A DNA stretch of 45,236 nt from a virus. Below the pieces are notes generated by a model that was not told the DNA's origin, ran no database searches, and was given only the letters and a program-made list of their open reading frames with translations. Made by a program: the position numbers and the translations under genes. How positions within the stretch are numbered: position 1 is the first letter of the stretch; each line of letters opens with the position of its first letter. Positions 4,583 to 42,716 of the stretch are shown piece after piece. Location: the IMG/VR virus record IMGVR_UViG_3300044814_000005, positions 1-45,236 of that record, one strand, 5' to 3'.

Positions 4583-5080
4583 GTGGGGATTGCTCAGGTA
4601 GGCGCACAGGCCAACCTTAATTACCTGGCTGGCCTGGTTGTTCCTGTTGTCGGCGGCTCTGCGCCCACCTGGATTCCCGGTCTTTATTGGATTGACTCTG
4701 GTGTGGCCAAGGCGTGGAATGGTTCAGCTTGGGTGGCCGACACAGGTGCTCGCTACGTCGCGCTGTTGTCGGTAGATCCTGGCGAGGCCACCACCATTGC
4801 CGCACTGACCGAGGTCACTACGCTGGGGTACGCTAGGTTCCTGATCACAATGGCACCAGCCACAGCAGCTAGCCCGTCAGTGACAGAGAGCCTTACCACC
4901 ATCACCTGGGGGCCAATGACTGCGGACATGGCTGTTGCGGCTGGCTGGGCTGCGTTGGTGACGGTTGCGTCTGGCACACTCGGTCATGTGTTGTTCACCT
5001 GGAAGATGCCAAAGCCGCAGAGGGTCGCCATCAGTCAGTCTGTTGTTGTGGCCACCAATGATCTGCAGTTGTCAGAATGA
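4583..5080 (+). CDS. Hypothetical structural protein, possible head decoration
   Basis: The 165-residue protein starts at GTG 4583 behind AAGGAGA. It is rich in Ala, Thr, Val and Gly with alternating hydrophobic residues, suggesting a beta-sandwich. The N-terminal part (residues 25-50) holds a W-rich stretch reading WIDSGVAKAWNGSAWV, a pattern often seen in tail or fibre proteins. Placement among head genes suggests a surface decoration protein. Its stop overlaps the next start (ATGA at 5077). The function is not established by sequence. Confidence 0.6.
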   Translation: MGIAQVGAQANLNYLAGLVVPVVGGSAPTWIPGLYWIDSGVAKAWNGSAWVADTGARYVALLSVDPGEATTIAALTEVTTLGYARFLITMAPATAASPSVTESLTTITWGPMTADMAVAAGWAALVTVASGTLGHVLFTWKMPKPQRVAISQSVVVATNDLQLSE

Positions 5081-39942: not shown

Positions 39943-41070
39943 ATGGTTAATGCAGATGTGGAAGCGTTTATACGAGGGGCCAACAAGACACTGAAGTCTG
40001 AGGTTCTGGTCCGTGCGTCGGACATGCTGGTGCCTGACCCATTCACTACCGGCTCACTTGCCTTTGATATATCCCTCGGAGGTGGCTGGCCGGGCAACAA
40101 GTGGGTGCAGGTCATCGGTCACTGGACTGCTGGTAAGACAGCTATCACTCTTAAGACCATTGCTGCCAACCAGCATAAGAATCCAGATCTGAATACGTTC
40201 TGGCTGGCGGCTGAACACTATGACACGCTGCAAGCACGGGCACTGGGAGTGGACAATAGCAGGGTAACAGTAGCACCAATGCAGGAGATGGAACTGGGCC
40301 TAGACCTGCTGCTAGCTGCTACTGAGTCACAGGTGTATGACATCCTAGTGCTGGACTCTTACCCGGCCATGCTTCCACACGCCGAGGATGAAAAGTCAAT
40401 GGCTGAGTTTGGACAAGCCGATGGTGCTCGCCGGTTCAATCAGTTTTGGCGTAAGGTAGGTAAGGCTAGTAGACGTAATTCGAACGGCCTTGAACGTCCA
40501 TTCCTCGGCATCATCATTAACCAGTACCGGGACAAGATTGGTGGTATTCCGCAGAAGTTTGGTGTACCCCAGACCAGCCCCGGTGGGCATGGGCAGGACT
40601 ATGCCTATTACACGCGAGTGGAGGTGGCCAGAAAAGAGTGGATCAAGGAGACGTGGCCTGATGTGTCTGATCCGGTAGCTGTTGGGCAGACGCTGAAGCT
40701 CAAGACCATTAAGAACAAGGCTGCTGCACCACAGCGGACAGCCGAGGTGGATTTCTATTTCAATGATGCACCAGTACATGGTTTTAAGCGCGGGGACTAT
40801 GACCTGGGCAAGGAGTCTGTCACTATGGGTATCCTGTTCCATGTTATTAAGCATGAGAATGGTAGCTGGCTGTCGTTCGAGGGAGAGAAGTTCAATGGTA
40901 AGCCAGCCCTTCAGCACCGGGTACTGGAGGATCTGGATTTCCGTGCGGCATTGTCGTCTCAGGTTCTGGCTGTCGCTCGTGATCCGAAGCGTGTAGACTC
41001 GATCGTACAGGAAAATATGCAGGCGGTGGCCAGCGCTGGTCCTCGCACTGTGAAGAAACGGAGGGCATAA
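39943..41070 (+). CDS. RecA-like recombinase
   Basis: The 375-residue protein has Walker A GHWTAGKT at 59-66 and Walker B ILVLDSY near residue 138. The later segment TSPGGHGQDYAYYTRVEVA resembles the region of RecA/UvsX beyond the mobile loops. The usual E. coli-type GPESSGKT is changed but keeps GxxxxGKT. It would form filaments on ssDNA for strand exchange and recombination-dependent replication. It starts the operon behind the promoter at 39892, and its TAATG junction couples it to the next gene. Confidence 0.88.
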   Translation: MVNADVEAFIRGANKTLKSEVLVRASDMLVPDPFTTGSLAFDISLGGGWPGNKWVQVIGHWTAGKTAITLKTIAANQHKNPDLNTFWLAAEHYDTLQARALGVDNSRVTVAPMQEMELGLDLLLAATESQVYDILVLDSYPAMLPHAEDEKSMAEFGQADGARRFNQFWRKVGKASRRNSNGLERPFLGIIINQYRDKIGGIPQKFGVPQTSPGGHGQDYAYYTRVEVARKEWIKETWPDVSDPVAVGQTLKLKTIKNKAAAPQRTAEVDFYFNDAPVHGFKRGDYDLGKESVTMGILFHVIKHENGSWLSFEGEKFNGKPALQHRVLEDLDFRAALSSQVLAVARDPKRVDSIVQENMQAVASAGPRTVKKRRA

Positions 41071-41342
41071 TGGCTAAGGAAGAAGAGCTTGTTGACCTTG
41101 CAAAAGATGGTATCAAGGCGGCGGCTGAAGCACTGCGGGCAAGCACCATGCATCTTATGGTGGTCAACTGTGTGTCCACTAGTCTGGTGACGAGTCTTAT
41201 GGGTGAGGTTATTCCTCATGAGATGGATATTGTCCAGATCAGTATGGTGTCAGTGTTCGCTCATGTTTTTAGCGAGGACCCAGATAGGGTGCTTGAGGAA
41301 CTTAATGAGCGTATCGCACAAGAAACTCCGTTGCAGGTCTAA
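41070..41342 (+). CDS. Small helical protein
   Basis: The 90-residue protein starts at ATG 41070, overlapping the recA-like stop. It is mainly helical (residues 5-25 acidic/basic, residues 27-60 with a hydrophobic run reading MHLMVVNCVSTSLVTSLMG) and may be membrane-associated. Its stop (41340-41342) lies directly before and in the same frame as the next gene. Confidence 0.55.
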   Translation: MAKEEELVDLAKDGIKAAAEALRASTMHLMVVNCVSTSLVTSLMGEVIPHEMDIVQISMVSVFAHVFSEDPDRVLEELNERIAQETPLQV

Positions 41343-41933
41343 TTGACTGCCATTGCCGGGCTGACCAACAATGGCATCGTGTATCTAGGAGGAGATCACG
41401 GTGCCACTGATAATCGCGGAGTGAGTGAGCTACGTAATGACGCCAAGGTATGGCGTAAAGGCCAGTATGTTTTTGGTGTTAGTAATTCTTTTCGTCTGGC
41501 CGATGTCATGCGGTATGTGTTCGAGCCACCGACATGGAATGTCGCTCTGAATGGTGATGCTATGCCATTCATGGTCAAGACCTTTGTTCCTGCCTTGAGA
41601 GACTGCGTGGACGAGTCAGGCCTGGAAGCACCTGCCGAGGAAAAGAACGAGAGTCCTCTACCTGGTCAAGTTCTGGTCGGGCTAGGCTCTCACTTGTTTG
41701 AGATAGAGGCAGACTATCAAGTCGGCCGGTCAATGGATAAGTTCAGAGCCATTGGTTCCGGTGACCTTATCTGCCTGGGCGTGCTGCAGGTGCTGGTGCA
41801 TCAGCATGATCCAATGTCTCCCGAGGATATGCTGTACACCGCACTGGGAACGGCTGAGCATTTTGTTACCACTGTCCGCGCACCATTCACCATTGTGGAC
41901 AATGCTTACAGTAGTAAGAGCAGGACCAAGTAA
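41343..41933 (+). CDS. Proteasome beta/HslV-like Ntn hydrolase
   Basis: The 196-residue protein starts at TTG 41343; an in-frame TAA lies directly upstream, so the start cannot be earlier. Residue 2 is Thr, so methionine removal would expose an N-terminal threonine nucleophile. Counted from that Thr, Asp17 (GIVYLGGDHGAT) and a Lys at 34 (DAKVWR; Lys33 in HslV) match the proteasome-fold catalytic set. The GSG motif (FRAIGSGDLICLGVLQVL) matches HslV AIGSGG, and PFTIVDN follows at the end. A phage peptidase might degrade host proteins or act on a defence system. Confidence 0.75.
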   Translation: MTAIAGLTNNGIVYLGGDHGATDNRGVSELRNDAKVWRKGQYVFGVSNSFRLADVMRYVFEPPTWNVALNGDAMPFMVKTFVPALRDCVDESGLEAPAEEKNESPLPGQVLVGLGSHLFEIEADYQVGRSMDKFRAIGSGDLICLGVLQVLVHQHDPMSPEDMLYTALGTAEHFVTTVRAPFTIVDNAYSSKSRTK

Positions 41934-42358
41934 TGGACAGAAGGATAGCTGAGTCCCGTAAGCAGGAGCATGACTGGGCTGACCGCTGGGGTGGCCGGGT
42001 CACACCAGGCAGTGGTAATGGTGACAAGTTTAAGGCCGATGTGCGTACTGCTATTCACTTGATTGAGTTGAAGTACACTCACGCGGCCAGCTTCACACTC
42101 AAGCTTGGTGACCTTAAAAAGATAGAACAGCAGGCGTTGCTTGATGGCCGAGACCCTGTGTTTGGTATTGAATTTGCTGCCTCAGCCGGGGACAATAGGT
42201 ATGTGGTGCTACCGGAGTGGGACTACCTGGCTAAGCTGGAAAGATTGGCCGAGCAGGACGCACTTATTGCAGAGCGGGAAGCCATTATTCGTGCCTCTTT
42301 GCCTGTTGTTGTGCCGGGACCAGATGGGTTGATACATGGTTCTCCACCTCAGACTTAA
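41933..42358 (+). CDS. Holliday junction resolvase-like nuclease (PD-(D/E)XK)
   Basis: The 141-residue protein starts at ATG 41933 with a one-base overlap. Residues 1-60 show the nuclease signature: an early acidic residue (Glu12), GSGNGDKFKADV with Asp36, then LIELKYT with Glu45 and Lys47, matching the catalytic D/E-x-K motif of Hjc-type resolvases. The C-terminus (after about 110) is helical and basic. With RecA and Cas4-like exonuclease it would form a recombination module. Confidence 0.7.
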   Translation: MDRRIAESRKQEHDWADRWGGRVTPGSGNGDKFKADVRTAIHLIELKYTHAASFTLKLGDLKKIEQQALLDGRDPVFGIEFAASAGDNRYVVLPEWDYLAKLERLAEQDALIAEREAIIRASLPVVVPGPDGLIHGSPPQT

Positions 42359-42716
42359 TGCGCCAGAGAACTGGGAAGGCGCTAAATGTGAAATAGTCAA
42401 GGTCGAGCGAGGCTACGATCCTTTCTTCGATGACGAAGAAGCAGCCATTGAGTTCTGTAATGGTGACGCTGATGGTGTGGTGTGCCCACTCCGTGACCAG
42501 TGCTTGCTCTTTGCTCTTACGAATAACTGCGCCTGGGGTGTGTATGGTGGCATGTCAGAGGATGACAGGCGTGCTCTTCGCAAGAAGTGGCCACTTCGAT
42601 CCGGCAAGGAGCCTCGGCCAGAGTGGATCTGGATGCCCCCAGGCGAGTCCAGAGCGCTGCTGACAGTGGCTGAGCAGGCGACCCTACACGATGAGTCGGC
42701 ATGGTCCGACGACTAG
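42336..42716 (+). CDS. WhiB-like transcription regulator
   Basis: The 126-residue protein starts at ATG 42336. Four cysteines (18, 41, 50, 56) are placed as in WhiB proteins, which bind a 4Fe-4S cluster; Cys41-Cys50 are eight apart instead of the usual two. The turn WGVYGG (67-72) and a following basic helix (SEDDRRALRKK) agree. WhiB proteins regulate actinobacterial transcription through sigma factors. It supports an actinobacterial host. Confidence 0.85.
   Translation: MVLHLRLNAPENWEGAKCEIVKVERGYDPFFDDEEAAIEFCNGDADGVVCPLRDQCLLFALTNNCAWGVYGGMSEDDRRALRKKWPLRSGKEPRPEWIWMPPGESRALLTVAEQATLHDESAWSDD

Follow-up and report, generated by a model that had tools for sequence, protein, structure and literature searches.

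The gene at positions 41343-41933 encodes a proteasome-like Ntn hydrolase, which we assign to the AAH subfamily of proteasome homologues. It is carried by a phage of Actinobacteria and fills a gap in the known distribution of AAH, since the survey of 2021 reported AAH in no Actinobacteria-specific phage (PMC8665760). The window, i.e., the whole stretch of DNA that was analysed (45,236 bases), is the complete IMG/VR record. The reading frame, its homology, the predicted fold, the conservation of key residues and the position of the gene in a cargo slot were established computationally. The gene is thus a real member of a family known since 2021 and common in phages. The first-pass annotation had presented it as unusual; the gene itself stands, but it is not new in kind, as such genes have been described and are common in viral contigs.

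Reading Frame and Homology of the Peptidase Gene

The frame is free of stops and gives a product of 196 aa (Table 1). The first-pass annotation had correctly placed the gene, the residues Thr1, Asp17 and Lys34 of the mature protein and the GSG motif, with the correction that the gene starts with TTG instead of ATG. This TTG abuts the TAA of the preceding ORF, and because the two codons touch, an N-terminal extension or propeptide is impossible, as had been claimed from the in-frame stop. An upstream in-frame start is likewise impossible in 144 of 209 distinct homologues. The contact of stop and start in the sequence suggests translational coupling. Promoter and terminator scans gave no signal above shuffled sequences.

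Table 1. Features of the peptidase gene and its surroundings in the window.
Feature	Position	Strand	Evidence
RecA/UvsX-like recombinase, bordering the slot on the left	39943..41070	+	Pfam RecA, 5.8e-33; UvsX-like PHROG
90-aa ORF, second gene of the slot	41070..41342	+	no homologue (Pfam, PHROG, phage collection)
Variable cargo slot between the recA-like and Holliday-junction resolvase genes	41071..41932	+	comparison with L246, GiJojo and BRock
TAA of the upstream ORF and adjoining TTG start	41340..41345	+	sequence; rules out a propeptide
Proteasome-like (AAH-type) Ntn hydrolase gene	41343..41933	+	frame, PHROG, AlphaFold2, fold and profile matches
Thr2 codon, N-terminal nucleophile (Thr1 after Met removal)	41346..41348	+	conservation in homologues, superposition
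Asp18 codon (mature Asp17, a catalytic-triad residue)	41394..41396	+	invariant, 134 homologues
Lys35 codon (mature Lys34; equivalent of Lys33)	41445..41447	+	invariant, 134 homologues
Gly138-Ser139-Gly140, counterpart of the HslV GSG	41754..41762	+	conservation of family columns
Holliday-junction resolvase, right flank of the slot	41933..42358	+	PHROG 2002, 2.9e-21
WhiB-family regulator, pointing to an actinobacterial host	42336..42716	+	Pfam Whib, 1.4e-09

Judged from sequence comparison, the homology of the gene is far beyond chance. Among the PHROGs, phrog_1040, annotated as peptidase HslV family, matches the peptidase with an E-value of 2.4e-10. When the window was left out of the family profile, the profile still retrieved the peptidase frame among the six-frame ORFs of the window, with an E-value of 4.7e-53. 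Single-sequence scans of the peptidase against Pfam and NCBIfam gave no match, and a search of the PDB sequences returned nothing useful; its kinship is visible only via PHROGs, tblastn, profiles and folds. Using tblastn, 25 GenBank phage records were matched, the top one being Moorella phage MTATph1 (36%, 2e-31). It should be noted that in MTATph1 (L002:5001-5558) the deposited CDS begins at 5043 (Met15), whereby the catalytic Thr is lost. The homologous start is the TTG at 5001, which is followed by Thr2.

Phage, Host and Relatives

The window comes from a myovirus: it has genes for the portal, major head and tail-sheath proteins as well as for DNA polymerase A, RecA and WhiB. Its nearest relatives in GenBank are the Streptomyces phages pSt2308, GiJojo and BRock (62-63% for the major capsid protein and 43-46% for RecA). 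The WhiB gene and the kinship with BRock and GiJojo bear out the actinobacterial host suggested earlier. Given that the genomes of the GenBank relatives are about 113 kb versus 45 kb for the window, the window is probably a fragment, and a partner ATPase may therefore sit outside it. The WhiB protein of the window has a widened Cys spacing (FCNGDADGVVC) in place of C-x2-C, a trait common to the BRock/GiJojo group.

Homologues are present in other actinophages too. In Actinomycetia phage DSL-LC01, the family gene lies 25 bp upstream of a WhiB gene, and 13 IMG/VR loci have the family gene with a WhiB gene nearby; those sampled form one tight clade. In the tree, the window peptidase sits on a long branch. 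One grouping of the window with actinobacterial chromosomal copies was rejected by the AU test (p 0.004), for a set that fails to form a clade even when the window is left out, whereas with a fairer actinobacterial set the grouping was not rejected (p 0.096). Nor was the grouping of the window with freshwater WhiB phages (p 0.31).

Predicted Fold and Active Site

The AlphaFold2 model of the peptidase, based on an alignment of 100 sequences comprising the window's own and viral ones, has a pLDDT of 92.8 and a pTM of 0.88. The predicted fold is that of proteasome beta subunits and HslV, with two central sheets, all of the helices H1-H4 and no insertion. Helix H2 comprises residues 73-92; there is no C-terminal S12/H5, and the chain ends in a strand followed by a short tail of low confidence. 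The best matches among solved folds were BPH (Z 21.3 over 175 residues), HslV (Z about 19.9) and mycobacterial PrcB (Z 18.9). Residue 2 (Thr) of the model superposes on residue 1 of mature BPH, HslV and PrcB. Together with the PHROG match, the fold confirms the first-pass reading of a proteasome/HslV-like Ntn hydrolase with Thr1.

The start codon is followed by Thr or Ser in all 152 homologues whose match begins at residue 1 (151 Thr, 1 Ser), i.e., Thr2 is not lost. GTG or TTG starts occur in 25 of these 152, and with about 15% of such starts in the family, automatic annotation may often remove the nucleophile. Asp18, Lys35 and Gly138 are present in 100% of 134 distinct homologue sequences and Gly140 in 99%. 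Cys occupies position 139 in 69% of them and Ser in 28%, so that Ser139 of the window GSG is the minority state. The mature Lys34 corresponds to Lys33 of HslV with an offset of one local residue. Gly45 is also conserved; the loop after it (the region of the oxyanion Gly47, beside the active site) reads GVSNS in the window versus GFAGG in HslV, in an uncertain alignment register. Most family members have GFTSS or GFTTS, without the 'AGG' of HslV, and keep Ser49 (98%) and Arg51 (99%). Thus read, the oxyanion hole of the peptidase may be different from that of HslV. Retention of the free Thr at the N-terminus and of the Asp/Lys pair points to strong constraint, which favours activity and disfavours a dead decoy. 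On the strength of these residues, the peptidase is probably a catalytically active family member.

Placement among Proteasome Homologues

Fuchs, Alva and Lupas described 22 new proteasome homologues in 2021 and found AAH in alpha-proteobacteria, Actinobacteria and many phages (PMC8665760). At least 559 IMG/VR contig stretches encode relatives of the peptidase. A scan of bacterial genomes found 185 more, from Rhizobiales, Azospirillum, Bradyrhizobium, Streptomyces, Frankia, Actinomadura, Plantactinospora and some Bacillota. As the bacterial distribution is that of AAH, we assigned the peptidase to this subfamily, a placement that is based on distribution and anatomy and sets the protein beside AAH by description. 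It shares with AAH the fold, the active-site residues and the absent propeptide, and likewise is a compact subunit with H2 and without an insertion or S12/H5; its relatives in viral contigs are up to 42% identical. It differs from AAH in being a long-branch member outside the dense chromosomal cluster and in its actinobacterial phage origin. No report of an assayed AAH protein was found in the literature.

The other candidates fit less well. PPH (Proteasome homologue of Phages and their Hosts) is also phage-borne and belongs to the same group I of proteasome homologues, but it has about 140 residues and no helix H2 (PMC8665760); with 196 residues and H2 in place, the window protein is not a PPH. 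BPH (beta-proteobacterial proteasome homologue, 5ovs/5ovt) is the best fold match and, like the window protein, has a longer acidic pore loop, yet the two are only about 20% identical and BPH is a separate family. HslV (ClpQ) has a similar fold, Thr1-Asp17-Lys33 and the GSG motif, but its identity to the window protein is about 21% and no HslU was found in the window, which is probably only a fragment of the genome. Moreover, the curated models TIGR03692 and PRK05456 went unmatched in the NCBIfam scan, so the earlier label 'HslV-like' does not hold in the sense of HslV proper. PrcB, the actinobacterial 20S beta subunit, resembles the peptidase in fold and catalytic triad but is about 17% identical and matches less well than BPH and HslV. 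It carries a propeptide and has alpha subunits as partners; in the window, an in-frame stop directly precedes the start codon, and PrcB was rejected. Anbu was rejected as well, because its C-terminal helix H5 is absent from the model.

Cargo Slot in the Recombination Operon

The common gene order in this group of phages is recA-(slot)-Holliday-junction resolvase-whiB-exonuclease. In the window, the slot is occupied by the 90-aa ORF and the peptidase gene, and the ATG of the resolvase gene shares one base with the TAA of the latter. It is possible that the 90-aa ORF encodes a partner or a substrate of the peptidase. The slots of GiJojo and BRock hold at least nine other genes, an RNA ligase gene among them, and a search of both whole records with the AAH profile gave no match. 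In L246, the locus with the best RecA match in IMG/VR, the slot is empty: recA leads directly into the resolvase gene, which shares 51% identity with its counterpart in the window, and the WhiB and exonuclease genes come next. The AAH profile also gave no match near recA in 80 RecA-related viral loci plus BRock and GiJojo, of which 82 loci 61 hold more than 2.5 kb after recA; the same profile finds the window frame as a positive control. Since the slot is empty or otherwise filled in relatives, the peptidase gene is accessory in the lineage of the window.

Two further observations were made by eye. The ribonucleotide reductase gene near recA in L246 (L246:2214-4304) has an apparent intein-like insertion. 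In many (pro)phage relatives, among them L191 and L093, HNH, terminase, portal or prohead-protease genes are found close to the family gene, unlike in the window. No conserved chromosomal neighbour of the family gene was found in Actinobacteria with crude ORF calling.

Proposed Function and Alternatives

We suggest that the gene encodes a catalytically competent AAH-type threonine peptidase that is oligomeric, has no dedicated unfoldase and is accessory to the phage, a reading to which we give about an even chance. The host methionine aminopeptidase would strip Met1 and expose Thr1. Judging from the fold and the invariant residues, Thr1 would then serve as the N-terminal nucleophile with Asp17 and Lys34. 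All four flanking helices are kept and there is no insertion, which fits the homo-oligomeric ring of HslV/BPH type that the subunits would form. The pore-loop stretch has 16 residues and a net charge of -3 in the window, compared with family means of 12.9 and -1.5 and with 7 and +1 in E. coli HslV. In the 45-kb window, neither an AAA_2 match of HslU/ClpX type nor an above-cut-off AAA match was found; the two weak AAA matches fall in helicase genes. Given the longer and more acidic pore loop and the lack of an unfoldase gene in the window, the peptidase most likely works like BPH or an uncapped 20S core. It would cleave peptides and unstructured proteins during infection independently of ATP, although a borrowed host unfoldase may be accommodated within the same proposal. 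As the gene occupies an accessory slot, its benefit probably depends on the host or on conditions. We infer peptidase activity, ring assembly, unfoldase independence and substrates from these features. A consideration against the proposal is connectase, where a proteasome-like fold can also be a ligase or a monomer; the altered loop beside the active site and the chance of a partner ATPase outside the fragment also weigh against it. As for published families, the pore loop of BPH is long and acidic and its unfoldase, if any, is not known, and the survey of 2021 found no co-occurring AAA+ partner for these proteasome homologue families (PMC8665760).

The peptidase might instead supply the proteolytic component of an ATP-dependent protease, with the unfoldase (Mpa/ARC or a Clp ATPase) borrowed from the host and host degradation redirected to chosen targets. 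The HslV/BPH fold is suited to capping, the window itself has yielded no unfoldase, and HslV-like genes without HslU were reported in jumbo phages (PMC7823757), which we count in favour of borrowing. We nevertheless regard it as unlikely, because no host-docking element was identified, the unfoldases of AAH hosts vary widely and the long acidic pore loop resembles that of BPH, which acts independently of an unfoldase. Equally unlikely in our estimate is an enzyme with connectase-like chemistry, be it a specific processing enzyme, a ligase or an amidase, whose target is a single protein of the phage or the host, for instance in counter-defence. Such an enzyme would agree with the existence of a ligase, connectase, within the proteasome-like family (PMC8665760), with the departure of the active-site loop from HslV and with the location of the gene as cargo in a variable slot, a common setting for counter-defence genes. 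However, the two-helix insertion of connectase is absent from the model, PADLOC gave no match, and no conserved neighbour fits as a substrate. That the phage protein is a threonine hydrolase for processing or counter-defence in Actinobacteria, working without an unfoldase and possibly by ligase-like or amidase chemistry, appears doubtful to us.

Both remaining alternatives are highly improbable. A role in virion morphogenesis, similar to that of a prohead protease, is hinted at by several (pro)phage relatives (clusters 2, 3, 20 and 21; by eye) in which the family gene adjoins terminase, portal or prohead-protease genes. The window gene, however, sits in the recombination operon, about 37 kb away from the genes for the head, and it is missing from related phages whose capsids are similar. 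Entry into the 20S proteasome of the host as a decoy or inhibitor, which would poison or retarget the particle, would suit actinobacterial hosts, which have a Pup-proteasome, and the fold match to PrcB. Against this, the catalytic residues are invariant, profile and fold both place HslV and BPH ahead of PrcB, and the family abounds in hosts without a known Pup-proteasome (such as Vibrio, Bacillota and Rhizobiales). The decoy subunit and the anti-defence tool put forward by the first-pass annotation are possible roles that gained no positive support: the former is opposed by the retained catalytic residues and the closer kinship to BPH/HslV than to PrcB, and for the latter PADLOC gave no match.

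Significance

AAH is a widespread and, to our knowledge, functionally uncharacterised proteasome homologue that is spread by phages. The copy in an actinobacterial phage, together with sister phages whose slot is empty or otherwise filled, constitutes a natural presence/absence pair for the use of a viral proteasome homologue, and this pair falls in hosts that own a proteasome themselves.
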